DNA from: Umbilicaria muhlenbergii
Taxonomy: Eukaryota; Ascomycota; Lecanoromycetes; Umbilicariales; Umbilicariaceae
Assembly (NCBI GenBank): GCA_000611775.1
Contig: KK106982.1
Location: 5,850,938-5,914,937 of the forward strand
Direction: 5' to 3'
DNA length: 64,000 bases
Below the pieces are notes generated by a model. That model worked only from the letters and a program-made list of their open reading frames with translations, did no database searches and was not told the DNA's origin. The translations under genes and the position numbers were made by a program. Of the stretch, positions 22,213 to 44,134 are shown in pieces (the stretch's first letter is position 1; every line of letters begins with the position of its first letter).

Positions 22213-24838
22213 ATGGCTCGTTACTTGACGCCCTCAAAGATCGGTCTGCTTGCTCTGGTCGCTCTGTATACAGACTCTGTGGTACCAACGGCTGCAACCA
22301 TACCCCTTCTTTCGTTCCTTGTTTCCCACCTTCTACCAAGCGAGCCACCAAAGCCTCTGAATGGCTGCGATGAGCCGGCTCGCAAGTTCGCACTTGTCAT
22401 CGAAGATTTTCAGAAAGCCACTATAACGCATGCCTCTGGGATCCCAGGTCGAACCCTCTGGGATTTGTTTCTTAAGAAGTTATGGGAGATTAATTCTCTC
22501 GATGCGTTACATGTCTTCTTCGATACCCTCTCCCTGCTACTTGCCAAGACTCGGGAAGAGCTCCAGAAAGATGCCGAAAGTGGTATTGTCCAAGCTACCG
22601 ACAGAGTGCTACTCTCTAGGACCTCGCCGCTGGGTGCTTTTGTGAGAAGAGCCCAGCTCGAGTTCACGAGATTGCAGTTTCATGGCCGCATAATGTTATG
22701 GAAAGCATTCGTTACGTATCGTGAACCTACACTGGGCATGTGGAAGAGGAGAAACCCTGCGGCAGGGAAGACGAGCTTCGACACCAACCTGCGAGAAGAC
22801 AATCTTCTCATGATAGATCGATTGATTGACGTTATTTACAGCGATCTCACAGACGAGGAAAGACAAGAAGCCGAGGTTAGCACCGATGATGTAGAGAAGA
22901 TCCTAGAGTTCCAGGTGAACGAGATGCAGAGTACGTTGGCAGAAATAGATCTAGGCTAGGCTCCTACTGATGTACTGCTCAGAGATGGGTACTAGGATAT
23001 CGGAGGATATGAAATCACAGTTCAGGAACATGTTAGAGGCAGGCGTGACAATCCCAAGTCTGAACCACTACGTTAAGTATGCGAGAAGCCCGCACTCCGC
23101 AAGTTATTGTCTTACATATGACAGATTTCTCGACTCGTGGAAGGCCGGTGACTATCCTTCCTCATTCGACAATCTCCACCGATATTTCGACTATACTATG
23201 CACAATCGTGACCGTACCTTCTACCAGTATGCACTACTTAACCTGGCAATTCTGCAAGCGGACTTTGGCTGTTTTACGGAGGCCTTAGATGCCATGCATG
23301 AAACGATCTCGACCGCAAGAGAAAACAAGGATATGGAATGTCTGAACTTCAGCTTGAGCTGGCTATACCATTTTGGCAAAGCGCATCCACGAGAAATCAG
23401 TCAAGTTCAGAAAACTGGGGTTCTCGGAGGAGAGAAGGAGGCTTTGGTTTTCCTAAAAGCGAAAGCAAAGGATACGGGCATGTGGAGTCTCCTAAGCACT
23501 TCGCTCCTGAGCGAGGCAAAACTGGCCCTGACTAATGTGAGTATGCGGTACCATGGTCTTTGAGATGCATGAAGCTTCACACTGAACTATATGTGATTGC
23601 GTTAGGGGGACAGCGTAACGCTGGCATTTGAGAACATCACGAAATCCTCGCATCTGAATGTCACCAAGAATATTATCAACGTCATTGGCAGTCAGATGAT
23701 GATGCAGGCGTCCGTATTCGCCAGGCTTGGTACATTTCCTGCTTCTGTTTGAGAAATAGAACGATCAGTGTTAACTCTCGAATAGGAGTGACCAGCCTAG
23801 CATGGTCGTACGGAGAACTTTTTCTGCAATGCTACGCTGATCAGTCACCAGCCGAGGATGTACTAAGTTGTATCTGTAAGAGTGCATACTCGGTAGGTGC
23901 TTTCGAAGTTCCGCCGCTTCGTCTAGCGCTGACCGTTGTGGGTAGCTTGCTCAGAGGGGTCGATACGACGAGGCTATGGCGAGAATAGACGATATTAACC
24001 AGGACACGTTGCGGATCTTGAAGCACCATCAGTATTGGATGGTGTACTCTGGCTTACTGAAGCTCCAGAGACAGCTTCATAAGTCAGTTTTCAGACCTCT
24101 CAAGCCCAAACAGTCACACTGATATGTCCAAGGGACCACCTAGTGGCAGCAGAACACCTTCTTGACCAGCTCCGCGGCAGCTCGTCTAATCTCGAGATGG
24201 ATTTCACCCTTGCCCTCCTTGAGATCGACCTGTTGATGCGACGTGGGGACTATTCGACAGCCATGAGCACGCTCGAAAAGCTTTCAACAAGACTCAACGA
24301 TGAAACAGCAGATATATACCAAAGAGTCAAGGTCATGACTCTGAAGGCCCGTCTCCTCGACAAAGCGGGCATACCACAGAAAGGATTCTCCGTGGCTTTG
24401 CGTGCTGCAAGTCTTGCCCACAAAGCCAGACTTCTCCCAGCTCTATGGGAAGCAGTAGGAGCGGTCAGCAGAGTTCTCATTAGCTTGGAGGAATTCGAAG
24501 CATCCGCCAAACTGCTTGCGAGTATCATGCCGCAAGTACTCGAATGCGAGGACTGCGACCTGTCCGCACATATGTTCACATATCTCGCCGATGCGCATAT
24601 GGGAATGGCGGGACAGGCCAAGGCGGAGACGCCGAAGAGAAAAGAGCAGCTGACAAAGGCGTTGGAGTATCTTGGCCGGTCGTTTGATGAATTCTCCAGG
24701 ATTGAGGATGTCAAAGGTCAGTGCGAGATGTTGGCTAAGAAAGCTACAATCATGCGTCTTAACGGGGATATGGTGCTGGCGAATGACTGCGCGGCTCAGT
24801 ACCTCGATATCAAGAGGGCCGCCAAAGAGGACGTCTGA
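22213..24838 (+). CDS. apc5: Anaphase-promoting complex subunit 5
   Basis: APC5 is a TPR-containing scaffold subunit of the APC/C ubiquitin ligase that drives mitotic exit. The first ATG followed by the family start MARYLTPSKIGLLALVALY is at 22213. Six exons: 22213-22930, 22983-23536, 23606-23729, 23786-23892, 23946-24082, 24133-24838 (2346 nt, 781 aa), frame kept throughout. Conserved blocks include TSPLGAFVRRAQLEFTRLQF (residues about 140-160), the Apc5 TPR block YPSSFDNLHRYFDYTMHNRD then FYQYALLNLAILQADFGCF, VTSLAWSYGELFLQCYADQS, RGRYDEAMARIDDINQDTLR and LKHHQYWMVYSGLLKLQRQL, and further helical repeats to the C-terminus. It is a standard gene of the MAT flank, on the same side as COX13 and APN2. 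Confidence 0.93.
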
Positions 24839-25398
24839 GGTAGAGTTCATCATGGTCTGAGTCACTTCTCAACGCAGCTGCAGATAGGCCTTCGGCTCAA
24901 CTTAGTAGTTGCTCAATACCCCGGCATCTAAATTAGAGGATCACTGTTGGCACACCGATGGCGCTATCGCAACGCGGTCTTTAAAAAGCCTCTTGACGAA
25001 CACGATATTGTAGCAATTGCCTATCTCACAGAACACCAATAGTCTTTGTTGCCTCAAAAACAATACACTCACACCTCCCACCAGACCGATTCCACTTCGA
25101 TATCAGGTTCCTTCCTTCCTTCCCTTCTACCTCCAAGCTCCTCACTCATCCTTCTTGTGGTAATTGACCTTGTCGTTCCAGCTGCAAATAACGTTAGCAT
25201 TCACGTTCTATAAATGTCCACCCCTTTCCCCCCACCGCCCCCTCCTTGATTCCTTCCTTCTTCTTTCCTCCTATGGTTGCTTCTCTGCTACGTCTGATAC
25301 TCCTCTTCACATTCCTCTTCTTCGAATGGGTGCAGCACCTCGATGGTGTTTCATTTCTACTACACAATATACACGCTTCGAGAACAAGACGCAGCCAC
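24839..25398. other. Intergenic between convergent APC5 and COX13
   Basis: The 560 bp contain a CT-rich plus-strand tract (about 25075-25330: many CCTTCC and CTCCT runs). No gene was recognised. Confidence 0.5.
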
Positions 25399-25958
25399 TT
25401 ACAATAGGGTCTGTGGATCACATCCGTATCAGTAAGTTCTTATCCGCTAAACATCCAGGGCTGAATTGACTGACCTTATCACCATCGCCCCAAAAGTAGT
25501 TCTTGGTCCGGAGGTTCTGGTACGGATACTCCGGACGCTCATCCAGCGGTGGCATATGGTCCCAGTGCTCCCAATGCTCAGTCCATAGGTTGTAAGCGTT
25601 GACACTTGCTATGATCAAGCATGGAATAGTGACACTGCCAGCGGTGAGTCTTTGAAGAGGGGTAACAGCTGAGAGTTCCATAACGACTGACTAGATTGAC
25701 AGTTTCCGCCAAAGGTCTAGAAGGCTTATTAGTACACCTGCTGAGTGACTCCTAAAGGACAGACACCGTACCGCTTGTCGCCGCAGCGTGCGCTTTCACT
25801 GCCTGCCGTTCCCTATTGAAGGCATTGTCTGCGGGCCCGCTGAGCTGGGGGCCGGAACTGCTGGCTAGCCGCCGTTGGAAGCTCGAGCGGATAGCTGGAC
25901 TCTGGACTTGTTGGCTGACACGCTGGGAAGCGCGAAATAGTGATCGTTGCGCAAGCAT
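25399..25958 (-). CDS. cox13: Cytochrome c oxidase subunit 6A (Cox13)
   Basis: Cox13/COX6A is a nuclear-encoded accessory subunit of mitochondrial complex IV. Four exons: 25958-25772, 25716-25692, 25634-25475, 25410-25399 (384 nt, 127 aa). MLAQRSLFRASQRVSQQVQ followed by RRLASSSGPQ is a clear mitochondrial presequence. The mature protein has DLWRKLSIYVTIPCLIIASV, a membrane helix, then YNLWTEHWEHWDHMPPLDER and PYQNLRTKNYFWGDGDKTLL, the hallmark of COX6A. Exon 2 is 25 nt and the last exon only 12 nt (Thr-Leu-Leu-stop). Head to head with APN2, the most widely conserved gene pair beside MAT in Pezizomycotina. Confidence 0.96.
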
Positions 25959-26217
25959 AGTGGGTGGTTTATCAGGTCGGTTGTCGTTCAACCTCGGAGC
26001 CGGTGACGATGAGGTCCAAGGTTCGCTTGAATACATAAGGCTGATTACGTAAGCAGCATTGGCCTCGACTGCCCAAAACGGGAAAGAGCTATGCGGACCA
26101 CTGTCGCAGCAGAAGAAGACGCGCTGCTCACTGAGGCACCAGGCCAAGAGCTGTCTGACTCTATCTTAGGGTCAGAGGTCGGGAGATATGAAGCGTCGGA
26201 AAACTTGAGAGGAAACA
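25959..26217. promoter_or_regulatory. Shared COX13/APN2 divergent promoter
   Basis: Only 259 bp separate the two start codons, so the genes share a bidirectional promoter. A weak TATATAAG string lies inside APN2 intron 1, not here. No binding site could be assigned. Confidence 0.6.
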
Positions 26218-28511
26218 TGGGTCTCCGCATAACCACTTGGAACGGTAAGGCCACCCCTCCCCCCCTATATAAGCTCTCGCTGATCCTTGTGGAAGTCAAT
26301 GGCATCAGGTCAGTTCCCCGAAGCTACTCGCTCACATACAAGTCATGCTGGACTGTGTCGCGAGAAAATCCTCTGCTAAACGTGCACGATCAGAAACCCA
26401 TTCTCCTATCAGCCATGGCGGGACAAAAAGACATTCGCAGTATGTCCAGGCCATGAAGGTCGGCTATTCCAGTTTTGTTGACCAGAATCTAGTCCATGTT
26501 CGACGTTCTCGAGGCGGATATCGTCATTTTTCAAGAAACCAAGATCCAACGCAAGGACCTGCGGGATGACATGGTGCTTGTTCCGGGCTGGGACTGCTAC
26601 TTTAGTCTGCCGAGACATAAGAAAGGTATAATTTGCAATCGCGCACTCCAATACACTTGGCTGAGCTATGTAAAGGATACTCTGGGATAGTAATATACAC
26701 CCGACAGTCGGTATGTGCACCGATCCGCGCCGAAGAAGGCATCACCGGTATTCTATCCCCCCCGAACTCCTCCACCAAGTTTGCGGATCTTCCAGAGGCG
26801 GAACGAATAGGCGGATATCCTACTCCCAATCAACTTGCCAATTCTCCCATCGACGCTACCACTATAGATTCCGAAGGACGCTGCGTTGTCCTTGAGTTTC
26901 CAGCGTTTGTCCTTCTGGGCGTGTACAGTCCAGCCAACCGCGACGAGTCAAGAGACGACTTCCGTTTGGGCTTCCTCGATCTGTTAGATGCGCGCATTCG
27001 GAACTTGGTAGACATGGGCAAACGAATTGTGCTGACTGGAGATCTGAACATCTCAAGAGAGGAGCTAGACACCGCGAATGCGGAGGCATCTATGCGCAAG
27101 AGTGGTTTTACGGAGCAGGAGTATGCTTCAACACCAGCCCGCCGCCTATTTAACCAGCTTCTGGAAGGTGGCAAGGTTTTTGGGGAAAGAGACGAAGGTA
27201 GAGAGAAGCCAGTCTTATGGGATACCACTAGGGGTTTCCATCCTTATCGAAAGGGCATGTTCACATGCTGGGAGCAGAAGAAGAATGCAAGACCGGGGAA
27301 CTTTGGTTCTAGGATAGACTATGTGCTATGCAGTCTGGACATGAAGAACTGGTTCTGCGACTCAAACATTCAAGAAGGATTACTGGTCAGTGAGAATGGC
27401 TGGCTGTATCAAGCCTCGACTGACTCAGCTGCAGGGATCCGATCATTGCCCCGTTTATGCGACCATGAAGGACAGGATCGTGGTGGATGGCAAAGATATT
27501 GATCTAGTCGATGTGATGAATCCTCCTGGCATGTTTGTCGGCGGGCAGCGACAGCGGGATTATTCTATGAAGGATATGCTTCCGATGTCTGGTAAGCTCA
27601 TTCCAGAGTTTGACCGTCGGAGGAGCATTCGCGATATGTTCTCGAAGCCTTCCCTGCCCAGAGGCCAGAGTACCGCATCATCGATGGTAATACAGGAAAA
27701 CACACCCATAGCTGCGGAAGCTGATGAGTTTGACGGTCGTCGCCCGGTTGAGAGAGAAATAGGAAGTTCGCAGATAGATGGAAGCGAGCCTGCATCTCCG
27801 ATACCGCCAACACAGGCTCCGAATTCTTTTAAAAGTGCCAGTCCAGCATCAGTGCCTGCTGGAAACAAACGGCCCGTCAGCGAGATGTCTACCAATAGAC
27901 CACTGAAACGTGTGAAGTCTGGGTCGTCAGCGTCGGCTCCTAACGGGGCAGGGAAAGGGCAGCAAAGCTTGAAGGGCTTCTTTAAGCCAAAGGCAACAGT
28001 GCTAGTAGACGCTGTTGGCAATGGCATCGCTGATGTACCATACTTTGCCCAGAACGGCAACAGCAGTGCCGCGTCGTTGCAGCCAGTTGCGGAAACAGTC
28101 GAACGACATCAGACTGTAGATGCGACTCAGCAGTCCCTGACTCCGGCCCCTTCGCAAACCCCTTCGACGCCTCCCGTCGCCGGGCCAAGTCCTTTGAAGG
28201 GGTCCAAGCCCACCGGCACATCCCCATTAGCCATCGGCCACGGCAGCGTTCACGACCAGGCGGAGGTGCATGATCCCATCGAAAGCAAAGAGTCCTGGTC
28301 GAAGCTCTTCACCAAACCCGCAGCGCCGCGATGTGAGGGTCACGACGAGCCGTGCATCAGTCTGTTGACGAAGAAGAGCGGGATCAACTGCGGCCGGTCT
28401 TTTTGGATGTGCCCTCGGCCACTGGGACCGACGGGGGCCAAGGAGAAGAATACACAGTGGCGATGTCAGACTTTCATCTGGTGTAGCGATTGGAACGGGG
28501 GCGTTACATGA
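26218..28511 (+). CDS. apn2: AP endonuclease 2 / DNA lyase (Apn2)
   Basis: Apn2 cleaves DNA at abasic sites and removes 3' blocks in base-excision repair. Six exons: 26218-26245, 26296-26308 (13 nt), 26394-26439, 26493-26625, 26676-27385, 27435-28511 (2007 nt, 668 aa). The exonuclease III-type fold shows MGLRITTWNVNGIRNPFSYQ (catalytic Asn), VIFQETKIQR (metal-binding Glu), LLGVYSPAN, VLTGDLNIS (Asp, Asn), GSRIDYVL and GSDHCPVYA (catalytic Asp-His). The disordered linker carries QQSLKGFF near residue 485, a good PCNA-interacting motif. A C-terminal GRF zinc finger (about residues 608-660) shows CEGHDEPCISL, GRSFWMCPRPLGP and WRCQTFIW. It is the left border gene of the MAT interval. Confidence 0.95.
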
Positions 28512-29941
28512 GACATGGCGCAGGAAGGAATGGGAATGGGATATCAAACAAAGCGGGTATCGGCCGCCGCGGACGGCGTATATGAGCCAGGAGGCATTCG
28601 GGGCATGTCGGAAATTCATCGCATCTTGCTTGTAGGATATTAGATATTTGGCTCGTGTACAAGAGTCTCGGATATCCCCCACTCGTTCCTAAACACATGG
28701 CAACTAGATGATGCGCCAAAGCTACTTCGAACTACGATACGGCTCCTTGTTCTTTGTTGCTGCTGCTACTTGAAGAGGTTCTCGTGGACGTCGTCCCGAG
28801 ACATGCACCATCCGCATCACGGAGACCATTGAGCTGCCGAGTTCTTTCCAAGACAAGCAGACTACACGTAGATATCTGAAAGTAATGTCCAAGAGCAAGG
28901 GCTCCGTCGAAGGCGAAAGGGACATGGCAACACGCTATGATGGCATTGTGGGAACCCCATTGGGGACAAGGCAAGGGGAGTGAATGTGATCCAACCACGA
29001 TCTGCAAGGAACCGATGACGATATCCGATCCGGCACAAGACATTTTAGCGGGGGCTCGTCCAAAGCTCTTTTCGTTCTCGTCCCCCACCGCAACGTAAAG
29101 GCCGTAACCTTAGCGGCGTCCGCGCCTTCGGCCTTCCGGTAAAAGGCGAGCTCGAACTCATTCACACAACACGGCTGGGGAACAACACTGACAAATCCAT
29201 CCATTTAGCCTTTTCTCCACACAACGGCTGGGAACAACACTGACAATTCATCCATTTAGCCTTTTCATCGTCAAGTGAAAAGCGGTCCGAATGGGGTCAA
29301 GCTCGACCGTTGCCATGGCCGCGGGCTGGCTCGGCTGGGGTGGTGACGGGCTAAGCGAGCCAGAAAAGCGAGGTGGCTTGGGACGATCCCAGCCGATCGG
29401 GGCGTCTGTGCGCAAACCTCAACAACACCTCACCTCACCTCACCTCATTCCAGCACGCACGGCCTTGGTTCCCTCGGGTCTCGGAGCTTGGAGTGTGGAC
29501 ATGGAATGGAATGGCCTTGGTGTCTCATTGTCACGCAATGCGGCTACGGCATAGAGGAGAGACAGCAATTGGAGTAGAGTGGATTTCATAGCTGTGCGAT
29601 CTATCTGAGTGTGATCTACTACTACAAATGTAATCCACCAAACTCGCTTTTTTATGTGTGCTGCACATGTGTAAAACAGTACAAGGATGTACAATGAAAC
29701 GTGTTAGGGGAGAAAAAGGTACAAGGAGCTTCTTTCGAAAACGAGCCTCCCTGTCGGTCTTGACTTTCCCTCCCCCGAGTTTCCCATGTAAAAAAAGGTA
29801 TCTGTGCTGAGTGCTGTGCATGAAAAAAGGGGTTCCAAACCAGGTACACGCTCTTGGAGAAGCCTTGGCCGCCCACCACCTACACCGAGCTAAGCAAGCT
29901 GTGCCCAGTAAGATGCTTGGACGTGTCAGTGCTGGAGATGC
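28512..29941. other. Intergenic 1.4 kb at APN2 side of MAT interval
   Basis: Only short frames without family likeness occur. It holds a short tandem duplication at 29164-29266, a repeated CACCT run near 29428-29446, and a pyrimidine-rich stretch. The idiomorph edge may lie here. Confidence 0.5.
29164..29266. repeat. Imperfect tandem duplication, about 50 bp per copy
   Basis: Copy one (29164-29217) and copy two (29218-29266) share ACAACACTGACAA and CATCCATTTAGCCTTTTC and differ by small indels. Confidence 0.8.
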
Positions 29942-30763
29942 CTACGCAAAGCTGTAGTTGCCATCCATGAAGCTATTCAGGTCAAAGTCGTCGTCCACCT
30001 CGGTGTCTTCCACGTTGGTGTTGGTGACAACGCTGTCTTGCCCGAAGCTCTCCTGCGCAGACATTTCTTGTTCCAAGACCTTCTGTCGATTAACGTGTCC
30101 ATCAGAGTAGGCACCAACTCGAAAGTGTCCGCATTTGTATAAGTCAAACAATATGGTCTGGTGGTTCGGAGGGAGTGCATTCCAGGCATTATCAGTGTTA
30201 ACGGCGTTATCGGCAGGTGCGGCAATCGTGGCCGCGGTCTCTTCTTAGTCTCTTCGGTCACTTGCTCCCAGTCGATTAGAATGCTGTAAAAGTTCCTGCC
30301 GCTCACCGAGACTATCTCCTCCTCTGTGTTCATAGAAGGGGTTAATAAATCATTAAAGAACCGCGTGTTTAGGTCATCATCGCCGGCTGAGGCTTGTCTT
30401 CTGTGTATAACGTTACTCACAATTGTGCTGTCGATAGGACAGTGTCCCGAAAGGCGAATGATTGCGTTGCCAATCTCAGTCTTCCAAGGTTAGCGATGGC
30501 CAAGCAAAATTCAGCAATAGGAAGGGAGGTTTACCAAATAGAGACTTGACTAGATGACCGCCGACTGAGCCGTATATCGGACGGAGGAAGATGAAGTAAC
30601 ATGTATTTCAGAGATCCCGACGAGTACAGCCACATTATGGCGAGAGATCATTAGCTTGTTGTGGGAGTTTCTGGGGGGCCAGCGCGAATTAGAGTGCGTA
30701 CGACATATTGATCTTCTCTCTAGTCTTGACAAAAGGGTATGTCCAGTATGGGACAATATCCAT
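29942..30763 (-). pseudogene. Disrupted gene with HMG-box MAT1-2-1-like pieces (tentative)
   Basis: Minus-strand pieces fall in the order expected for an HMG-box MAT1-2-1 protein, but in different frames. A start-like MDIVPYWTYPFVKTREKIN begins at ATG 30763. It is followed by HNKLMISRHNVAVLVGISEI, then in another frame YFIFLRPIYGSVGGHLVKSL before a GTAAAC intron donor. Next come an HMG-like stretch with SYRQHN in one frame and PSMNTEEEIVSVSGRNF...WEQVTEETKKR in another. The acidic C-terminus is VEDTEVDDDFDLNSFMDG, ending at 29942. I could not find introns of normal size that join all pieces, so at least three frame changes remain. The N-terminal pattern (aliphatic run, V...GI..I.) and the PxMxxxEI...G..F...W spacing are what suggested MAT1-2-1. 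Similarity is by eye only; an unrelated or badly modelled gene is possible. Confidence 0.35.
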
Positions 30764-31129
30764 CGCACAAATCTTGCCTTCAAGATGATACAGAAGAGTA
30801 CGGTCTACGACCCTGATCAGCTTGAGATAGATGGGTGAATGAAACAAGAACAAAGACCATAATTCACTCAAAGCTAAGAAACTTACGCCTTTTAAATGGC
30901 TCGCGCCAAATCTGAATCTTGTTCTGGCACTAGCTAGGGGCGTTGCACAGCATTGTTCCAATAACACTTCAGAGCTCACAGACCAACCTTCATCACGAGG
31001 TACCAGTCAACACTGGTCTACAAACTTATCCTGCCAAATCCACCTCTTCTCCTACACCGTTCAGCCAGATCCACGATCTATCAAAAACAGTTCCGTTCAC
31101 GAACTTCACAGCTAGGAACAGGACGAAAG
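30764..31129. promoter_or_regulatory. Divergent region between HMG-like relic and the 291-aa gene
   Basis: The 366 bp separate two start codons facing away from each other inside the MAT interval. No motif was assigned. Confidence 0.4.
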
Positions 31130-32287
31130 ATGTCGGCCGAAGACCAAGATGAATGGGATTCCAATCTCGAAAGCTCCGCCAACAGCAGTGAAATTGAAGA
31201 TTGGGAAGTTCTTGGGGTCCACGCTCTCTATCTTGATAGCGATAAAGGCTTGACCGCTGGTATTTGTCCAAGAGCTTCATCTTGGTGGTAGTGCTAATTG
31301 TGACAGCTCACCCCGGAGACTCATTCCACTCTTGTTCACAGGACTTTCTTCAAAGCCTGATAGACGATCTGCTGGAAACCAGAGCAATTTGCCTAGCCAC
31401 CAGAGATTTCGAGGATGCTGGGCTCGATCACGATGAGGTTGAAGAGTATCTAACAGTGTTCAGTGAGGAGTTGGACCGTCTAGACAAACACCCTGAACTC
31501 TTTCCAAGCGAAGACATGCGCCACCAGTTTTTTCGTGCTGTCCATCAGATCCTCCAAGGCTGGGATGCGGCATTCGACAAAATCAAGGCAACGCAGATGG
31601 CACTTAAGGACATAGCCCAGGAAGCTGTCAATGAGGTAAATGACCTTGCCAGACCCACGTATACAGTGAATCGAAAACCCTGGCAGCAATATTTGCACAA
31701 CAAGGCTCCAGGGAGTGGTATTCATACCAGCGAAATGGATCAAGAGGGATCCACCCAAATTTTCACACCAGGAGCAATGAGACTTTGTGGCAACTGGGAC
31801 AGAGTGTGCTACAGCATCATGAAGGAGATCGACAAAGTGAGTACAACATCCAGGATTTATCTCCTGATGAACACCAGAAACTAATAAACATGCATACGGA
31901 CCAGACCCACAAAGGTGACCCTGTCTATCGTCCAGTAAGTGTTCTGGAGACCTTATGCCAGAGTCCAGCTAATAGCAGTAAAGGGGCTAACTATCAGGCC
32001 CGGCCACCCTGGCATCGCACCTAACGGGCTTTTTCGCAAGATTCGGCTTGTGAGTATGTGATCGCTCTCCTAAGACTTCGTACTCACTTCACTCAGATAT
32101 CACCTAGACTCACCATCCCTATTGTAAGAATCTTTCATTGCAGCGAAAGCGAACACTCTTGCTAATTACAAAGGTTTCGGATGAATCCCGTACGAATGAC
32201 GTATTTGGGGAAAAGGAGCTGGCGGAATTGAACCTCGACTTTGGTAAGGCGGTGAAGGGTCTTACAGAAGAGCTTGACGCTGATTAA
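31130..32287 (+). CDS. Unknown protein inside MAT interval (291 aa)
   Basis: I do not recognise this protein. Five exons give one open frame: 31130-31259, 31307-31836, 31915-31934 (20 nt), 31998-32049, 32144-32287 (876 nt, 291 aa), all GT-AG; branch-like CTAAT and CTAAC sequences stand before the acceptors of introns 1-3. It starts MSAEDQDEWDSNLESS, is rich in acidic and amphipathic helical stretches (FLQSLIDDLLETRAICLA, EEYLTVFSEELDRLDKH, AFDKIKATQMALKDIAQEAV), and ends FGKAVKGLTEELDAD. There is no signal peptide, membrane segment, zinc ligand set or HMG/alpha box. It lies 523 bp upstream of MAT1-1-1 on the same strand. Dothideomycete MAT idiomorphs often carry extra genes of unknown function, so an idiomorph-specific gene is plausible. 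The intact splicing frame argues that it is functional. Confidence 0.75.
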
Positions 32288-32810
32288 ACATACTAGGGTT
32301 CTTTCAAGCAACGCAAAATCGGCGGCTGGTGAGAAATGCTGGTACTGGTGTACTTGTGCATGACGTTGCAATCCCTAAGGTCTAGGCTCCGGGCGTAGTA
32401 GTTAGCCTAGGAATGTACTCAAGGTGTCCCTTACGTTGAAAGTAACAATAGCTCAACCATAAATCTTGCTCAAGAAATACAGAATGATCCCTTCTTTGAA
32501 ATTCATTGTTGTAGACGACCAATAAGATTGAAAGCCTTGAGCGTACTAGTTCTTTGTTACATCCAAAAGGTTAATCCGCCAGTGTTGACCAGCCACCCGA
32601 GATTGTCTCATAACACATAAATACATCATTTTGCACTCAACCATGTAATAACAACCACCTCGATCATTGTTCTCTTTCTTTCTTTCTCACAACTGCAACC
32701 TCCACCAAAGCGTCGCTCAAGCTTCTTTATCTTCAGGATCAGACCCGTCATAACTCTTGAGGCTTGCTTTATCGAGATACCACTTTCCACAAGACAACTC
32801 TCACCTCACG
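32288..32810. promoter_or_regulatory. MAT1-1-1 upstream region
   Basis: The region upstream of MAT1-1-1 contains a CT-rich tract (about 32668-32690, TTCTCTTTCTTTCTTTCTC) of the kind that precedes fungal transcription starts. Nothing else was recognised. Confidence 0.5.
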
Positions 32811-34206
32811 ATGTCGCTTTCCGCTGAGAATTCGATGCCGGTGCCACCAGCTTTTCACCAGCTTCTCCATAGTTATTCGGCTGACCAAATCATCGCAATG
32901 GTCCACTCAGCTGCTCGCGTTAACGGTCAGTCTGGAACAACCGAAACCAAAGTCACCAAGCATTCTTTGATTGCACACCCAAAGAAGAAGACCGCAGCTG
33001 TAGCTGCAGCTTCGAAAGCAACGAGGCCGCTCAACTCTTGGATCGCCTTCCGTAGTAAGTTAAGCGCAATAACATTGTGTGCCTTGTTAATCATTTTCAG
33101 GCTATTACTCCCCGATGTTTACTAGCGTCCCGCAGAAGGAGATTTCCGGATTTCTCACGTACCTCTGGCAGACCGATCCTTTCAAAGCCAAGTGGAGCAT
33201 CCTCGCTAAAGCGTACTCCCTTATCCGTGATAGTAAAGGCAAAGAAAAAGCTCCTCTCGACTCCTACCTGGCTACCAATGGCCCGTTCATTGGCATTATC
33301 CCCCCCGAGAACTACCTGGAGATGCTTGGCTGGAAGATTGTTGCCGGTAACGACGGCGAGAGACTCTTGCGTCGTGACTTTGAAGTCGACGTCTCTTCTC
33401 TTGACCAAGATCTGCTCACCAGTAACGTTTCCGTCAATGACATTATCGAGTACAGCTATGCTTCTGGTTACATCGCGGCAGACGAAGCCAACTTGATCGT
33501 ACCAGACAACGAGCCGGTGATGACCATGGCGACGTCGGTGCAGCTCAATCTCCCAACCAAATCGGCATACTCCGCTCCAGTGAATATGGCCATCTCCGAT
33601 GCTTCGGGTCCCACAACTGCAGTTACTATGGCCGACGCTAATGACGCATTTGAGCAAAACCTTTCGCGCGCTTTGAGAGCAGAGGCAGAGAAAGACGGAA
33701 TTGGGAGCGAGCACCAAGACGAGGAGCCGATGGAAGGGTCTTCAAACGACGACGATGACAATGGGATCGCGCATGCGGACTATGAAGCCACAGAGGAGAC
33801 ACCGTCCTTGAACGAGATGGATACAAACACGCTAGATTCCATGGATACCTACAGTTCATTTGTTACTGAAGCGGTACTGGACGACTCTGAAGTTGGTGCA
33901 AACACACAGACTGCTCTGACCCCGCAAGTCAGCATCCCTACCGGGCAAGTCCTCGGGCAAGCTGGGCAGGCTACCGTATCGAACCACACTCCGCCAACCT
34001 TCGATATCGACATGACACTGCTCCCAGCGGTCAACCTCCTGAACAACAACGCCTTTGCGTTCGCCGAGGATGATCATTACCCGTTCAACAGCCTTTTCTC
34101 TCCAGAAAACAATGTCCTCGAGTTTGATCCTTTCATGGGAGATTCTTTCAATGCCTATGACTTGAGTGATTACTTCGGCATCCTGTCCTACCCATATTTG
34201 GGCTGA
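32811..34206 (+). CDS. MAT1-1-1: MAT1-1-1 alpha-box mating-type transcription factor
   Basis: MAT1-1-1 encodes the alpha-domain transcription factor that specifies MAT1-1 mating identity and controls pheromone and fertility genes. The ATG at 32811 gives MSLSAENSMPVPPAFHQLL. Exon 1 is 32811-33054, the intron 33055-33100 (46 bp), exon 2 33101-34206 (1350 nt, 449 aa). The MATalpha_HMG box spans about residues 70-130: RPLNSWIAFRSYYSPMFTSV, PQKEISGFLTYLWQTDPFKA and KWSILAKAYSLIRD. The intron splits the Ser codon of FRS, a splice position I recall as conserved in alpha boxes. A second conserved patch follows (GPFIGIIPPENYLEMLGW). The C-terminal half is acidic and disordered and ends DLSDYFGILSYPYLG. 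The gene looks whole. Confidence 0.95.
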
Positions 34207-36848
34207 TGGTGAGTGGATATGCGGTGGTGGTTGTACAAAGTGGCGGCTGACTTCCGACTAGACACTGGCAGTCCTCTTCGACGCACATAGTGACATGGGC
34301 ATGACTGCTAGGGCTCGGCTGCACTATCTTGGCAGATGCGGTAGGCAAGCTGTTCAGGATGCTGTGTGTAGCGAGTGCGTCAACATCGGTGTTCATTCCA
34401 TGTCTTTATCGTGCGATCAGGCAGAGGCGGCCAGCGAGGGGATAGCAACGGGGGATTGGGCGGACCGAAGCAGCGGCGATGAAAATGTTTTCCCTGGACA
34501 TGCTTCAACAGCACAGCTTTGCACCCAGCACATGTCTTTTACAGCACAAACTTGCGAGCACACACTTCCCCCAGTACATGTTCTTGCCACCGAGTTAGGA
34601 TAGCAGAATGAAAAGCACGAGACAGTAGATAGAATGCAGCAAGAACATGTCGAAACGAAGAGGGCGCAAGGAGATGTGATGGGGTGAAGTCCAAGTAAAG
34701 ATTTGAGTTTGCCTGCTGATTTGCAGCAGCCCCTGCAGCTTGGCAGTCCCGCCGCGGTCACACGCCTGACGCATGACGCCTGACGCCTGACGCCTGCCCC
34801 GGCCGGAAAGAGCGCCAAGAAGGTCGGCGGCACGCCCAGTCTCCAGAGTGCGCTGCCCACCAGTCCCTCCGAGTACTTACGAGTACAGCGGAGGGAATCC
34901 TACTGCGTACCACTTGCTATGATCTAGAGTATAATCTAGAGTATACCAAATCCAGTCGTGCCCATATCTAAGTCTTCTTCCCGTGTCCATGTTCCGATTG
35001 ACATGTTCATGAGCCAAAGGATACGGCCAATGTCGGGCTTCAACTGCTTCCTGCCTTTGCACTTGTCGTCGCTGCGAGTGGGAAACACGTATCTTTGGTG
35101 ACATATCCGAGCCCGCGTGTATCTATCTACAATGTTTCCCAGTACGAGCGGTCTTCCATCGGTCCCAGGGCCAGTTGTATCTTTCTTAATGACCTTCTGA
35201 AGCCTGCAACGCAAAGAAGTCTCCCTTTGATCGTCCTTGGCATCGTCCACTACGTGCCCCAACCTACATTGATTGGGAAGTTCTGTACATTATAAAGTAT
35301 TCGTCTCGATGATTTCAATAGGCCAATTACGTGACAAGCGTTTCTCTTTTACCTGTACAGATTCATTCTACTGGCTGTGTACTGCTCGCGATTCTACCGG
35401 GTCATTTTCCGGCAGTAACTTGGCAGCAATTCTGTTTGAGCTTGAGTAACTCGCGTCGACGCCACCAAGGTACATTGTTCCGCACGCCAGGCCCAAGTGA
35501 GAGTGCTGTGTGCGATTTAGAGCTAGCTAATGTACATCCCTTTGTATCCATCATAACCATCTGCAGCGACTTTTTCGCTCTGCCGACGCTCTTGGCCCCA
35601 AGCATCCCTCTGCATCCATGACAAAACCTGCCTTTGATGAACCCTCCTCGAACAGCAGATATAGAAGGATTACGTTGCAGGGTCACAAGTCTATCACTCC
35701 AAACTCTCGATGGACCATCCTGAAGGTGGTTGGAAAAGACGACCTCGCACCTTGTCTAATTAAACTATCGTTCCGCGGTACTTCATGTGTTCTGGTAAGC
35801 AGAGACCGGGCTCTCCAAATCCCCCTTTACTATTGCCCCGTTCTTTTTTTGGTCTATCAAGCCTTTGCTCATTGTTGCCAAATCTACTCCGAGCGCAAGA
35901 CCCTTGACGGGGCACCAAGGCCGTTACAAAGCTACAATCTCTACAGCAAAGGTCGAGATTCAACCCCAATCGCCCACCGTACATGGCCGCCATAATGCTT
36001 GAAACAGGAAGACAGTGCCTCCAACAACACCAACGAGCGGTTCCCTAGCGAACGCGCCTCCTCCTGCTTCACGCCGGCCGCCTCCGACATCCCAAAGTAA
36101 CCCCCAGCCTTACCGACACCAGCCCTACCGAGCCAAACACCACAAAAATCCCAACCTCTCCGTCCAAACCCCGCCACTTCCAGCCCCTCCGCCCCTCCCC
36201 GAAACCCCAACCACATCTCTCCAGCCCCTCATCCTCCTCCAGCCCCCTCTCCCCAACCACACGGATCCACCCCCGCCCACCCCAACCATCCACCGCCTGC
36301 ACGAACCCACCTTACGAACCCACACCGGGCGACGCGGCAGAGAAAGCAGGGCGAACACTCCCAGCAGAGCGTCCATCAAGGATGACATCCCCTAGCCAAC
36401 CTCCTGTGAGAAGGATAGGAGTACTACAGCGAGCATCGGCTGGTGGGCAGGAGGATACCAGTGGGGAGGTCGAAGCTGGTTATCTACAGGTCCAGAGATG
36501 GAATTCCGGGTTCCAGCGCTCTCGTCGTTCTAGCCATAGCTTCTAAAGTCCTACACCAACTGCACACGAACACATACACAACACTCTGCCCACTGCGCCA
36601 CATTCGTATCGTCAAGCACCGCGAGTCCCAGTCTCCGACATCCCAAGTAGTTTCGGATTCTATTCCCGTAGCCAGAGGCAGTACCATGTACGCTAAAGTA
36701 GCAAACGACTTCCAACCACCATCGTACAAAGCCAACCCGCTCCCTCTCCCTACTCTAAGAAAACCCCCCGTCCCCGCCTACAAGCAGCCCAGCTACTCCA
36801 TCCCCATCCCCATCCCCATCCCCATCGTCATCATCATCATCATCATCA
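34207..36848. other. 2.6 kb between MAT1-1-1 and SLA2
   Basis: No gene was supported. A frame from ATG 35618 (MTKPAFDEPSSNSRYRR) and a proline-rich frame at about 36015-36395 lack family likeness and, for the latter, an ATG. The plus strand is strongly C-rich at about 36020-36310. Repeats are listed separately. One idiomorph border is expected here. Confidence 0.5.
34762..34796. repeat. Five tandem copies of a heptamer (ACGCCTG)
   Basis: Five head-to-tail 7-bp units run from 34762 to 34796; the second reads ACGCATG and the others ACGCCTG. Confidence 0.9.
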
Positions 36849-36852
36849 TCAT
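36798..36852. repeat. Hexamer then triplet microsatellite at the SLA2 stop codon
   Basis: About four to five CCCCAT/ATCCCC units (36798-36826) pass into eight TCA triplets (36828-36852). The SLA2 stop codon (TGA, 36851-36849) is one unit of the triplet run, so expansion would lie in the 3' untranslated region. Confidence 0.85.
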
Positions 36853-39800
36853 TCCTGATACGAAACCTTCCGCATCTCACCCAACCTCTGCCTCGCCTGC
36901 GCCAGATTATTCTCCAACTGCAGAATCTCAACCTACACCGCCACGTACCCAGATATTAGCCCACGCAAGCCCCTCAGCGCACAGGAACAAAAGACTACAA
37001 AAAGGGAAAGCACGACGAACCTGTTGCTCCATCTCGCGAACCTTGAACTCATGCCCGCTCAAAGCCGCATAATCGACATCCTCCCCCTCCTCCCGATTCC
37101 GATTCTTGATAATCTCCTGCACCTGCCGGACCAAGCCCCGACAAGCCTTGCCGACGGCCTTACTCGCATCCTCGAGTCGGTCTTGCGTCTTACTCCCAAA
37201 GTGCGCCTTGACCCTCGACGCGGCGACCAGCTGCGCCGTGCTGGCCGCCACGTCGTTGCTCGCGACGATCAGCTGCTCCGGCGAGTTGCGCCCGCTGATG
37301 ACGCCGTCGGCGGTCTCGATGAGGGTGTTGGTGGAGGTGGCGACGGCTTTGGCGGCGCTGATCAGACCCTCGGTCCAGCGGTTGTTTTTCTTGTAGAAGG
37401 CCGTGCGCGACGAGGAGCCGCGGCCTTCCTTGACGATTTCTTGCTGGGAGGCGGTGGCGGCTTTGATGAGTTGGGCGATGGCGTTGGTGACGGCGATGGC
37501 GGCTTCGAGAATGCTGTCGTGGATCTTGAGTTCGTAGGTCGAGTATCCGTCCCGCGGTTTCTTCTTGAGCTTGTTGAGCCGCTCTGCGGCTGCATCGATG
37601 GCGTTGGCGGCGTTGGTTAGTTCGCGATCTACCAAGTCGCCCAGGTCGCCGACCGCGTTTGTGATCTTGCCTGATTTCGGGGCGAAGGCGTCTGCGAGTT
37701 TGGAGAGCTTCTGGAGGTTCATTAGGACTTCGTGGTTGTTGTTTATGACCACGTCTGTCTTTTGGGTATCTTCGAGACCTTTAAGTCGGAATGATTGGAG
37801 AGCACGGAAGAAAGTAATAGTTGCTTGGGCCGATTGACGACTCGCGTTGATCAGTTGGTCAGCCTTCTTCTCCTCTGTAGCGAACCGCGTAAGACCCTTA
37901 GTGTTACTTAGGACATCGGCAATCGATCCGGCAAAGACGCTGACGGTGCGAATAATCTCGGCATGCGTGCTATTCGGCCCATCTGCGATGAAGTTGTTGA
38001 AGGCCGTAGAGAACTCCGTTGCGCTTGACGATGCTTTTTCGATCTGTGACAAGACATAGGGCGCAGAAGCGTTTTGATTACCTGCCTGCATCGTGGAGTC
38101 TAGCTCATATAGCGCATCGTCCACACGCTGGACACCACTTTGCAGCACCGAGTCGATAATGTCGTTGATCTTCTGGATATTGCTAAGAAGGACTTGGTCG
38201 ATCTGCTCGTCCAAAGCCTTGTCGGTATCTCCACCGTTCTAAGCAGCATTAGCGACGGCTAATCAAACGCTTGCCGTGTGATCGTGACGTACCATCTTCA
38301 GCTCGTTCAACTCTAGCAACGTCTGATCCATACCAGACTTGTAGATCTCTAGCTCCTCCTCTTTCTCCCTCAAAGCACGATCCAAGTCCCCGTCCCGTTC
38401 TCCATACTTGGAGTGAATATCCTCCAGCGCCCGCGTCTTGTTCTGTTTAGTAGTCAGCACCATCCTAAACACTCATGTTCCACAGCAACGAACCCTAAGA
38501 GCTTCCTCCAGATCCGCCATCTCCCTGTTGTACTTTGCCAACATTGACGAGAGCTCCGAGCCCTTGGCGCGCTCGGCGTTGTCGGCTTTCTCCAGTGCAA
38601 AGCGAAGCTCGCGCTTGAGCTTTTCGACCTCTTCTCTGTTGCCACCTGTAACCCGATCCTTCTCATGGAGGGCTCGGTCCCTCTCCCGGATCATATCTGC
38701 CAGCTCTAGATTCTTCGTCTTCATCTCCCTTTCCAGCTTTTCCCGCTTATCTATAGCTTCCTGCGCTGATGCAGCCTTGAGCTGTACCGACTTGAATTTT
38801 TGTAACAGCTCTAGATGCTCGTGGCGTAGCTGAGAGTATAACTTGGCGAGTGCTTCGTACTTTGTCCGCCACGTGTTGACCTGTTCTTGCAGCGCTCGTA
38901 TTTGATCGTCCTTTGATGCTGTTTGCTGGCTAAAGTTATTGTTGAGCTGATTCAGCTGGGTTTCGAGGTCCTTCATTCTCCTGTCGTACTGCTCCAGCAT
39001 AAGCTGGTCTTGCTCGTACTGTGCCCGAGCATTGAGATTCTCCCGCTCAAGCTCAGCCATGCGACCTTGTGTCTGCGCCTGGTACTGGTCCCGCATTAGC
39101 TGCTCCTGCGCCAACCTCTGTTGTTCAGCTTGTAATCGTCGTTGCTCTTCAAATTCTCGCTCTGCCTGCTGCTGAGCCAGCTGCTGTTGGTATTGCTGTT
39201 GGTTCCATTGCTCTTGCAGCCTCCGCTGCTCAGCATCGTACTCATCCTGCTGCCGCTTTTGCTCATTCTTCCAGAACTCATTGATCGGCTCAGGATCCGG
39301 AGCCGCTGCTCGTGATGGCATAGGCGTCGGCTCCTTTTCCTTCGGCTTCTCGAGTTCTTTGGTCGGCCGCCGTGGCAATGCGGGTCGTTCGTCATCTTCT
39401 GCAAGGAGATTGGGCGGTTCCTGAGGTAGTTTAGGTACAGTAATTAGACTAGTAAGGTATCGTAGGTTCGAGCATTCATAGTAGAATTTGAGGAGACGAT
39501 AATGTTGTGTATCGTATCTTCCCCGCAAAGGCTCCAGAGCGTCGTCATCGCCAGTCGCTAGAGTCAAGTCAGATGTATCCCAGTAGACTCCCCTAGAAGA
39601 GAGAGAACCCACTGGTATGCATTGCCCGAAGCATGCTCGTAATGAACTTGTAGATCCCATAGCTTTCTTGCACTAGTGGTACCAACGCAGATATCCTACA
39701 TTCGTTGTTTGCCCCACTTCGGAAGTTCGAGAAGATGAGCCTTTGGAAGCTGTCGATTTGGTCTTGAAGGGTCATGAGGTCGGAAATAGTCTCGTAGCTG

Positions 39801-40755
39801 TTATTCGTTACTAGAAACTCTGGGGTGCATGCAACGAGAGGCGGAGCCTACCCTTCATTGGGATCATTAATGGATTTCAGACTGATGTACTCCTCATATT
39901 CGAAAAGACCTGAGAGTCCATGTCAGTTGCTACGTCATTTCTGTATGACCGTGGAACATACCATTGAACTCAGGATGCTGCTTATGGAAGGCCAGCTTCG
40001 CCAATAGGAAGTAGACATACTCCCGCAGCAAAGGTCCATACCCTTGATCCAGTGTCAGTCTCACCTCCCCCGAAGAACGAGCCCCTTCTCTAGGTGAAAC
40101 AGGCCGCACCCCTGTGTACAACCATCAGAGACGACTTACCCCTGAGTCCGTCACCAGAAATTCCCCTTGTCAGGCTCTCTAACCAATTTATATTATTCTG
40201 CGCTTCTTTGACCGCAACAGGATGTCCCTCCTGCAGCACTTTATGTATGGTGATAAGGGCTTTGAAGGTCTGAACTTCGTCTGCGAGGATAGGTTGCCTA
40301 GAAGAAGAGTAGTCAAAGCGTCAGCTTAAAGTGGCACCGAGAGACATCGGGGTACCCAACAGAGTCGAGTGTTCGTAGACCCACACTTTCATGCCAGCCC
40401 AGAAGGATTGCGAGGACTTGTGGTCCCAGGTGTAGACGATGCATGCTCGCACATGTTTGCCTTTGAGCTTGTAAGAAATTGGAGCGTAGTAAGGAGAGAT
40501 CGAACGGTGCCTTACGTTTCGGGGCCGTCTCCTCTGAGGCAGATTAGCGAAGCTGATGTGGAGGGTGAAGTGGCTGAGGCTCACCAATGCTAGTAGCTTT
40601 CCGTATATTTACGGCTAGGTCTGATTCTGATCTGTGCAATGGGTGAGAAATGGAAATTCTGAGAGCCCCTTGGGAGATGCCATGTGCCAGCAATTGACTC
40701 ACCTGCTCATATCAACATTGCGGGTGGTGTTGGCCGCCCCATATGGGTAGGACAT
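36849..40755 (-). CDS. sla2: Sla2/End4, actin and endocytosis adaptor
   Basis: Sla2 links clathrin-coated pits and PIP2 to actin; it is the classic MAT border gene. Twelve exons: 40755-40703, 40631-40585, 40533-40516 (18 nt), 40460-40385, 40297-40140, 40042-39962, 39909-39852, 39797-39613, 39557-38494, 38442-38293, 38238-37021, 36932-36849 (3192 nt, 1063 aa, usual family length). The N-terminal ANTH domain (to about residue 270) shows SDLAVNIRKATSIEETAPK, KHVRACIVYTWDHKSSQSFW, QPILADEVQTFKALITIHKV and CSNLRYLTSLITVPKLPQEP. A Gln-rich coiled coil follows (about 330-650). The C-terminal talin-like I/LWEQ domain (about 750-1040) includes RDGYSTYELKIHDSILEAAI and WTEGLISAAKAVA, and the last exon ends GEMRKVSYQE. 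It is convergent with MAT1-1-1. Confidence 0.96.
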
Positions 40756-41350: not shown

Positions 41351-44134
41351 TTACACCTCCCCATGCCCGCCCAACCAAACACTTTTCGACCTTGCTTCTT
41401 CCTCCTGCGCCGCCTGCCAACTTGAGAATGCATCCTCGTCATTGTCAAAAGTACTCGAAGTACGCCCGGTACGCTTCGAGGAGGATCCCACATGAGTCGA
41501 AGATGGCGAATCCGCTTTGGCAGGCTCGGGTAAGTCATCATTATCGTTTTCATGGCCAGCCGCCACTGGTTTTGTGACGTCCTTCCGAATATCTTCTAGC
41601 GGACTCGCTGGCTCCGAGTCTGGTGGCGCTTCTACTACCAGCAATTCTTCGTCGTTGGCATCGTTAACGGGAGCGGCATCCACTCTCCTCCTTGCCGGAA
41701 GAGCTGGTGGTGGAAGTGGCCGCGATTTCGTTTCGTCCTGCCGACGGTTAGGTAGCAATGGTGGAGGCAAGGGTTTCCGCTTCGGTACGTTGATAGGGGC
41801 CGTCTTCGTGCTAGGTCGTTCAGGTGGCGGTAGAGGTTGACCAGGAGGCGGAAGAGGACGGCCGCGCCCTATAGGATGCTCCGGGGTGCCTTCTCGCTCG
41901 GAGTATTCAGTGGCAATTTTCTGTTCGTTGCGACTGAGAACACCCCATCCCCATTTCTTCGCTGCTGCAGTTGCGGCACCGATGGAAGGAATGGACTGCC
42001 TCTTCTCCGACGGAGTTAGCGATCGCGCTATTGACTGTAGCGCTGTTTGGTGTAGAGGTTCGTTTGGAAAAGCAGACTTGGCGGAGTTCGAGCTGATGCT
42101 GGTGGGTGTTGTGGGGAAGGAGGCCTGGCTTGAGTTGTTAAAGCTTGATGGCGTGACTGTCTGCTCCATGATGCTATCGGCTTCGGAAGACGTTGACGAG
42201 AAGCTGCCGCTTTTACCGAGCTGAGACATGTTAGACGACTCAGGAAGAGAGCCGATAGGAGTAGCTGTGGGCGATGTTGGTTGAGAACGGTTACTGATAG
42301 CTATCATTGCACTCGCGGCATCTCGCTTCTGTTTGGCTTTCGTCTCTTGTTTTGCCGCATCAACGTTTGCGTTATCCGTGTTGACAATGGGGTTGGCTGC
42401 GGCCGCAAATGAGTGCGCTCGCATCATCCTTGGTGGCTCAGAATATTTCTGTACACCAGAAGAAGACCCAGTATCTGTAGTATCCACCAGGTTGTGGGTC
42501 GATTTCGACGCTTTGCGTGCAGTCAAAGATTGTTCAGAGGCATCCGGAAGCACTGACATGCTCATCGTTCTCTCATCCCGAGGACTTGGGGGAGCAGGAG
42601 AACTTGAGCCTGACTGCATACTGGCCTCGGCTTCGTCTTCGCCCTCTTGATCGGGCACCTGAGTGGCGGAGGGAGAAGACTCTGCCACATTCCGCTCCCA
42701 GATACCGCCTCTGAATTGCTGATCCACGGTGCTCAGGAACGGACTGTCATCCCAATTCGGATAGACTACGGTCTCAGCAAAGACTTCTATGATCCTCTTC
42801 TCGATTTGTGAGAGGATGAAACCGTACGTGATTTGCATAGAGCTAACGATAGGCTCGATAGTCATCTCCAGGGTTGGCATCGTCTCAAAGGTAACCCAGA
42901 GGCGATTACTAGGAGGCGGCTTGAGCCGTAGGAGGGCGTGGCCTTCGAGCTTCTTCACCACCACAGCCAGAACCAGATTGACTTCTCGAGCCTTGATCCG
43001 AGATCCCAAGTCAATGCGGGCAGTAGTAGCAATTTCGATTCGAAAATTGCCGGTATACGTGAAGTCTGCCTCCGCGACACAGTCACCGTCCACAGTAAGA
43101 TCCTTCAGCTTAGGGTTCGTGATGTACGGTGCCCCCTCGCCCATGTCGATTTTCTGTAGTATGATCCCTGACAGGAATGTGGGTTTCTTAACACGAGCGA
43201 TCTTCTTCGTGATCTTCTTGCGGACAAAGTCTTCGATATCCTTTGTCTTGTACATAGCCAAAAAAAGCCGACCAACAAGCCCATTTATCCATCTTGTCTG
43301 TAAATGTTCCTCGGAAGAATGTAGTCGCTGTACGAGACCAATGATATGCTTTACTTCGAATTGCTGGGGCTTAGGAGGACTGTCTGCAGCGTCGGGTGTC
43401 TTCTCCTGATTTTGCAACAGCGCAAAGTAGAAATCTTCCTTGTCTGAGCAATTATCTGAAAACAAGTAGAAAGGCTTCGACGTTGACGTAATGTTTCCCA
43501 GGTTCGGTTTCCTCATCAGGCATATAGCATGCCTCTTGATCCACAGTTCCCCTTCAGGTATCTCGTTTCCTCCACCATAGACACTCACATCGTGATGAGC
43601 CAAGGATATCACATGCCGTACTTCCACCTGTTCCTTGTCGTCGTAAAGCATCAGGTGCCCATGCCTCAATACCACGTAGAACCAATTCCTCGCTCTCCTC
43701 GCTGTCTTCTCATTGCCCTTCCCAGGATCTAGACTCGAGCCTTTGTTTCTCTCGAAGAGACTGCTGTACATGCTCTGGTACACGCTTGGGCTTTTCGTTC
43801 CGACTACTGTTCCGGCTGGCGTAGTCCTCTCCGGCGGCTTGCCATTGACACCCCCTGGTACGTACTCGCGGCATACTATGAACCATTGTGCGGCGACGTC
43901 CGGCTCCCTTCCTCGCAGAAACTTCTCAGGAATAGTGTCTGAGCCCGACCTTAAACTGTGCTCATCATCACCAGGACGACGAATGGAGCCTCCTGCGTGA
44001 GGAGGAGTGTTGGAGCTTGAGGAGCGTGTGGGCAAGGTGAGGTAGGCATGGAGAAGAAATAGACAGATCAGGAGGGGAAGAAATGTCAGCCCGCCGACAA
44101 GATAGATGGACAGGAAAACGGAGAGGGTCCCCAT
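41351..44134 (-). CDS. nvj2: PH and SMP domain lipid-transfer protein (Nvj2-like)
   Basis: The protein matches fungal Nvj2, an ER membrane protein whose SMP domain moves lipids at organelle contacts. A single exon encodes 927 aa from ATG 44134. The N-terminal anchor is LSVFLSIYLVGGLTFLPLLI (residues about 4-30). A PH domain follows at about 100-240 (NWFYVVLRHGHLMLYDDKEQ, IKRHAICLMRK). The SMP domain (about 260-480) shows RWINGLVGRLFLAMYKTKDI, LKDLTVDGDCVAEADFTYTG and LEMTIEPIVSSMQITYGFI. The long tail is disordered and Pro/Ser-rich (PPPGQPLPPPERP, PRPLPPPALPARR), suggesting SH3 ligands. A 'pleckstrin homology domain' gene beside MAT is a known feature of several Dothideomycetes. Confidence 0.92.
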   Translation of the reverse strand: MGTLSVFLSIYLVGGLTFLPLLICLFLLHAYLTLPTRSSSSNTPPHAGGSIRRPGDDEHSLRSGSDTIPEKFLRGREPDVAAQWFIVCREYVPGGVNGKPPERTTPAGTVVGTKSPSVYQSMYSSLFERNKGSSLDPGKGNEKTARRARNWFYVVLRHGHLMLYDDKEQVEVRHVISLAHHDVSVYGGGNEIPEGELWIKRHAICLMRKPNLGNITSTSKPFYLFSDNCSDKEDFYFALLQNQEKTPDAADSPPKPQQFEVKHIIGLVQRLHSSEEHLQTRWINGLVGRLFLAMYKTKDIEDFVRKKITKKIARVKKPTFLSGIILQKIDMGEGAPYITNPKLKDLTVDGDCVAEADFTYTGNFRIEIATTARIDLGSRIKAREVNLVLAVVVKKLEGHALLRLKPPPSNRLWVTFETMPTLEMTIEPIVSSMQITYGFILSQIEKRIIEVFAETVVYPNWDDSPFLSTVDQQFRGGIWERNVAESSPSATQVPDQEGEDEAEASMQSGSSSPAPPSPRDERTMSMSVLPDASEQSLTARKASKSTHNLVDTTDTGSSSGVQKYSEPPRMMRAHSFAAAANPIVNTDNANVDAAKQETKAKQKRDAASAMIAISNRSQPTSPTATPIGSLPESSNMSQLGKSGSFSSTSSEADSIMEQTVTPSSFNNSSQASFPTTPTSISSNSAKSAFPNEPLHQTALQSIARSLTPSEKRQSIPSIGAATAAAKKWGWGVLSRNEQKIATEYSEREGTPEHPIGRGRPLPPPGQPLPPPERPSTKTAPINVPKRKPLPPPLLPNRRQDETKSRPLPPPALPARRRVDAAPVNDANDEELLVVEAPPDSEPASPLEDIRKDVTKPVAAGHENDNDDLPEPAKADSPSSTHVGSSSKRTGRTSSTFDNDEDAFSSWQAAQEEEARSKSVWLGGHGEV

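Follow-up and report, generated by a model that had tools for sequence, protein, structure and literature searches.

A MAT1-1 mating-type locus between APN2 and SLA2 of a filamentous ascomycete, with two unnamed coding units beside MAT1-1-1

Alpha-box MAT1-1-1 proteins bind to DNA and activate the genes for pheromones, receptors and development that belong to one mating type. In a compatible partner, the corresponding position is occupied by an unrelated sequence that includes the HMG-box gene MAT1-2-1. Here we describe a MAT1-1-1 gene and its surroundings in a stretch of 64,000 nucleotides (nt), hereafter called the window. In most of the Botryosphaeriaceae genomes of one study, APN2, COX, APC5 and CIA30 are found together with a gene for a protein with PH and DUF2404 domains (PMC8905617). 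MAT lies between APN2 and SLA2 in two Coniosporium species, Taxawa and Aureobasidium (PMC11195213). In contrast, another account places SLA2 of Aureobasidium 70-500 kilobases (kb) away from MAT (PMC4227064), and in Cladosporium fulvum the distance is 1.43 megabases (Mb) (PMC9453070). In Aureobasidium, MAT1-1-1 and MAT1-2-1 are oppositely oriented, and the unknown open reading frame (ORF) that separates them in three genomes has degenerated to a pseudogene in a fourth one (PMC4227064). A gene termed 'Unknown-1' is present on the APN2 side in Hortaea (PMC3744574), and for Laburnicola sla2, apn2, cox13 and apc5 are drawn in a homothallic arrangement (PMC8629976).

The window very probably contains the MAT1 locus, with a MAT1-1 idiomorph, of an ascomycete that is filamentous and most likely belongs to the Dothideomycetes. 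It combines a 146-bit match to PF04769 (MATalpha_HMGbox), an intact two-exon reading frame and coding-like codon bias with the presence of APN2, SLA2 and the outer flanking genes. The identification as a MAT1-1 locus, correctly made in the initial annotation, is well supported. In the self-trained gene model, MAT1-1-1 consists of the exons 32811-33054 and 33101-34206, separated by an intron of 46 nt (GTAAGT...CAG), and the reading frame is open across 449 codons, as expected from the intact alpha-box gene that the initial annotation had proposed. The match of the 449-amino acid (aa) product to PF04769 (E value 1.1e-42, cut-off 28.1 bits) covers residues 52-215 and profile positions 21-183 of 194, i.e., nearly the full profile. 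According to the predicted splicing, the intron follows residue 81 and would be located inside the alpha domain. Codon bias was tested against dinucleotide shuffles with a codon table retrained on those gene models outside 28512-36848 that scored at least 55, lower-scoring models being left out; the bias of exon 1 was equalled by 17 of 1000 shuffles and that of exon 2 by none of 1000. No other Pfam family scored above its cut-off with the MAT1-1-1 product. The sole other family at E ≤ 1, Orthopox_A36R, reached 12.9 bits at a cut-off of 25, and a PDB sequence search with residues 1-220 gave a single match at E ≤ 10, which was at chance level (E value 0.56). The refuting case named in the initial annotation, an alpha box with better scores to non-MAT proteins, was tested by these searches and did not hold. 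A single-sequence AlphaFold2 model of part of exon 2 was too poor for use, with a mean predicted local distance difference test (pLDDT) score of 39.9. Judged by its family, the protein would function as an alpha-box mating-type regulator.

MAT1-1-1 is located between APN2 and SLA2, and the interval 28512-36848 is bounded by the stop codon of APN2 (28511) and the terminal exon of SLA2 (36849) in the gene model. The gene order in the window is CIA30 (+), ADE1 encoding SAICAR synthetase (-), APC5 (+), COX13 (-), APN2 (+), the MAT core, SLA2 (-), the PH/DUF2404 gene (-) and a gene for a B-family DNA polymerase (-), the names of the flanking genes being assigned from Pfam families and position (Table 1). 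The flanking genes named in the initial annotation, from CIA30 to the PH-domain gene, contained the expected Pfam domains at E values that leave no room for chance, and their claimed order was right when read outward from MAT. SLA2 matched I_LWEQ (PF01608, E value 3.6e-51) on its C-terminal side and ANTH (PF07651, E value 4.5e-31, profile positions 153-272 of 276) on its N-terminal side, and APN2 showed a sub-threshold match to the GRF zinc ribbon, its start in the gene model being provisional. The use of CIA30 and SAICAR synthetase as Dothideomycete markers had to be abandoned, as Aspergillus niger has the two genes in its MAT region as well (PMC8454179). The PH-domain gene, the second gene after MAT and located beyond SLA2, is the better marker for this class (PMC8905617, PMC3744574); its match to PH_11 is clear, whereas that to PF10296 (DUF2404) remained below the cut-off (17.7 vs. 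21.9 bits). Since CIA30 and SAICAR synthetase also adjoin MAT in Aspergillus, the assignment to a Dothideomycete-type neighbourhood, which is plausible, depends mainly on the PH/DUF2404 gene. The domains of the polymerase suggest that its gene is probably REV3. Farther genes recognized by Pfam were Med12 (227-1426, -), an ARMT1-like phosphatase gene (4545-5357, -) and a mitochondrial carrier gene (61921-62865, -). Scans of the whole window for tRNAs and for Rfam families at the gathering score gave no hits.

Table 1. Features of the MAT1 locus and its neighbourhood (window coordinates)
Feature	Position	Strand	Basis
CIA30	19753-20514	+	PF08547, E 1.6e-41; coding start may be inner ATG 19966 (gene model)
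ADE1 / SAICAR synthetase, 3-exon model, 306 aa	20673-21771	-	SAICAR_synt PF01259, E 5.3e-40 on 203-aa part
APC5, anaphase-promoting complex subunit 5, 6-exon model	22213-24838	+	ANAPC5 PF12862, E 4.1e-38, first 424 aa
COX13 / cytochrome c oxidase subunit VIa, conserved core only	25475-25615	-	COX6A PF02046, E 4.3e-24
APN2 (AP endonuclease, 'DNA lyase')	26496-28511	+	Exo_endo_phos PF03372, E 2.9e-13, from profile position 31; gene model
Coding-like, apparently broken stretch	29942-30480	-	Codon bias and frame reading
Second core gene, multi-exon, without known family	31130-32287	+	Codon bias and gene models; between APN2 and MAT1-1-1
MAT1-1-1, alpha-box transcription factor, 449 aa	32811-34206	+	PF04769 match, gene model and codon bias
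MAT1-1-1/SLA2 spacer, no gene found	34207-36848		Relaxed gene models, shuffle test, Pfam
SLA2 (cytoskeleton assembly control protein), partial model without N-terminus	36849-39775	-	I_LWEQ, ANTH, gene model
Putative PH / DUF2404 membrane protein gene, 'PIM' of Dothideomycete MAT loci	41351-44134	-	PH_11 PF15413, E 1e-16; PF10296 below cut-off
B-family DNA polymerase with C4 zinc finger	44511-49704	-	Pfam and gene model; directly past PH/DUF2404 gene

What is new here is a core of low guanine plus cytosine (G+C) content that contains, besides MAT1-1-1, a second gene on the plus strand and a coding-like but broken-looking stretch on the minus strand, both of which are absent from the initial annotation. 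The G+C content of 29942-34206 is 0.483 compared to 0.518 for the window outside 28512-36848, and the spacers on the two sides have values of 0.526 and 0.538. When 1195 overlapping windows of this length were compared, 0.7% were as low in G+C, including those overlapping the core itself. This hints at an idiomorph core of about 29.9-34.2 kb, without proving its borders. The strain would be of mating type MAT1-1.

The second gene starts with an exon at 31130-31259, the codon bias of which was equalled by 8 of 1000 shuffles. By manual reading, an intron of 47 nt with a branch-like site (CTAAT) links it to a second exon at 31307-31836, which, tested as 31309-31836, was equalled in bias by a single one of 1000 shuffles. 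The last exon, tested as 32177-32284, was matched by none of 1000, and the middle piece 31854-31934 showed no codon bias (497 of 1000). The gene models differ for this region: the strict one stops the gene at 31884, while the relaxed, scripted one starts exon 2 at 31364, predicts an intron at 31837-31914 and ends at 32287 with a product of 272 aa. The 3' half of the gene is provisional after position 31836 and may be mis-modelled or damaged. A PDB search with the product gave a best E value of 0.41 among the two matches listed, which is chance level, and a single-sequence AlphaFold2 model of exon 2 was again too poor for use (mean pLDDT 54.4). The gene is placed like MAT1-1-10 or 'Unknown-1', which suggests a kinship by position alone, and it would have a mating-related role.

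The minus-strand stretch shows strong codon bias in its 3' part (29945-30231), which was equalled by none of 1000 shuffles. Upstream of this part the coding-like frame runs into a TAA codon at 30245-30247, and the adjoining upstream piece is open in a different frame. The relaxed gene model made a two-exon gene of 95 aa from part of the stretch (29942-30333). Apparently, it represents a broken gene or gene fragment, an alternative possibility being a splice pattern that was not recognized. We considered whether it could descend from the mating-type gene of opposite type, or from some other MAT gene now lost, as a relic of a locus that once held both and was reduced to MAT1-1. The coding-like 3' part, the in-frame stop and the frame change would fit such a history, and the position and orientation recall the Aureobasidium locus (PMC4227064), a resemblance in layout that is the sole reason to regard the fragment as a possible MAT relic. 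However, Pfam revealed no family in any of four sequences from the minus strand of 29850-31130, namely three frames with stops given as X, shortened to 253, 238 and 303 residues out of about 427, and one joined sequence of the 3' part. The stretch was not significantly similar to MAT1-1-1 or the gene at 31130-32287, and no homologue backs its identity. The upstream pieces are also not clearly coding, as 123 of 1000 shuffles equalled the bias of 30268-30477 and 246 of 1000 that of 30536-30595. An origin as a MAT relic appears rather unlikely. Somewhat less likely still is a wider scenario of a three-unit idiomorph, in which MAT1-1-1, a second, domain-less mating gene at 31130-32287 and a decaying minus-strand MAT gene would be the trace of a self-fertile ancestor reduced to one mating type, with SLA2 kept beside MAT and the PH/DUF2404 gene beyond it. 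The locus is ordinary in kind, a real and intact MAT1-1 locus plus two unnamed coding units.

The rest of the interval yielded no further genes. In 34207-36848, no gene model was obtained even with relaxed penalties, and none of the 11 segments scanned had an above-cut-off Pfam match. The ORFs 35618-35794 and 36003-36392, the two tested there, were rejected as genes with 765 and 745 of 1000 shuffles reaching their codon bias, as was the ORF 30692-31006 (-) with 443 of 1000; an open frame of the length of the latter is rare in shuffles (fraction 0.002). A search of 25000-40500 for inverted repeats able to flip the locus gave one weak pair, 30013-30039 and 36009-36035 (27 nt, 78% complementary), which we take as chance. 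The spacer on the APN2 side contains an imperfect direct duplication at 29178-29266 with a spacing of 51-52 nt.

Several points weigh against the assignment as a Dothideomycete-type MAT1 locus with a MAT1-1 idiomorph. The idiomorph would be deduced from one sequence, and the low-G+C signal is weak. The product of the second gene matched no Pfam family above cut-off. Relatives were sought in three scans, with SLA2 and MAT1-1-1 against viral contigs and with SLA2 against prokaryotic genome contigs, and no locus was confirmed. Finally, the profile search for HMG boxes covered a part of the frames in the interval, the segments given to Pfam outside the minus strand of 29850-31130 being selected stop-free ones. 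Within the parts scanned, no HMG box was found beside MAT1-1-1, a result in favour of the MAT1-1 assignment. In addition, tblastn with an HMG consensus gave a best E value of 0.025 in the whole window (3787-3867, across a stop) and of 0.41 inside the interval, both of which were taken as chance.

The HMG-box result also bears on the question of whether the fungus could be homothallic, with MAT1-2-1 elsewhere in the genome, which would make the strain self-fertile rather than simply MAT1-1. Homothallism is known in Dothideomycetes, including four Aureobasidium species (PMC4227064), Laburnicola (PMC8629976) and the genera Botryosphaeria, Neofusicoccum and Dothiorella (PMC8905617), and the evidence for a single mating type covers the 64,000-nt window only. 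The lack of an HMG box next to MAT1-1-1 in the parts scanned and the single recognizable MAT gene between APN2 and SLA2 argue against it, and we consider homothallism improbable. The mating type MAT1-1 proposed in the initial annotation thus holds for this window, whereas a MAT1-2 gene elsewhere in the genome is possible for the strain. One might also suspect that the lineage is asexual and the locus a remnant without function, because one core unit looks broken and the 3' frame of the second gene is provisional, but this is very unlikely in view of a MAT1-1-1 gene that is open over all its codons and has both the domain and the codon bias.

The locus, which indicates to which mating type a sequenced strain belongs and can serve as a basis when further strains are typed, can be compared with several described ones. 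As in the Botryosphaeriaceae, APN2, the gene for COX VIa, APC5 and CIA30 are located on one side of MAT and the gene for the putative PH/DUF2404 integral membrane protein on the other; in contrast to the available Botryosphaeriaceae text, which names SLA2 zero times, SLA2 lies here between MAT and the PH/DUF2404 gene (PMC8905617). Flanking of MAT by APN2 and SLA2 is shared with the Dothideomycetes Coniosporium and Taxawa, but MAT is of the MAT1-2 type in those strains, and an 'rRNA adenine demethylase' gene forms part of the locus (PMC11195213). The MAT1-1 locus of Hortaea werneckii is similar in its flanks, with APN2 plus an unknown gene on one side and a PF10296 gene on the opposite one, and in having an intron inside the alpha domain. 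It differs in that its MAT1-1-1 has two introns and encodes 358 aa, compared to one intron and 449 aa in the model presented here, and SLA2 is named zero times in the available text (PMC3744574). In Teratosphaeria, the MAT1-1 idiomorph likewise consists of two genes, MAT1-1-1 and MAT1-1-10 (PMC7513301), and the gene at 31130-32287 may correspond to the latter by its position. The MAT region of A. niger also includes CIA30, SAICAR synthetase, APN2, COX VIa, APC5 and SLA2, but its spacing is different, it has additional genes and its MAT1-1 segment is inverted, and 'pleckstrin' is absent from the available text (PMC8454179). In summary, the layout fits the known range of ascomycete MAT loci, and its gene order is not claimed as new. 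It joins the general ascomycete order APN2-MAT-SLA2 with the PH/DUF2404 gene as a probable Dothideomycete neighbour. Since SLA2 is distant from MAT in C. fulvum and Aureobasidium, the window may have preserved the gene order that preceded the relocation of SLA2, which would be useful for understanding the evolution of the locus, though not surprising.

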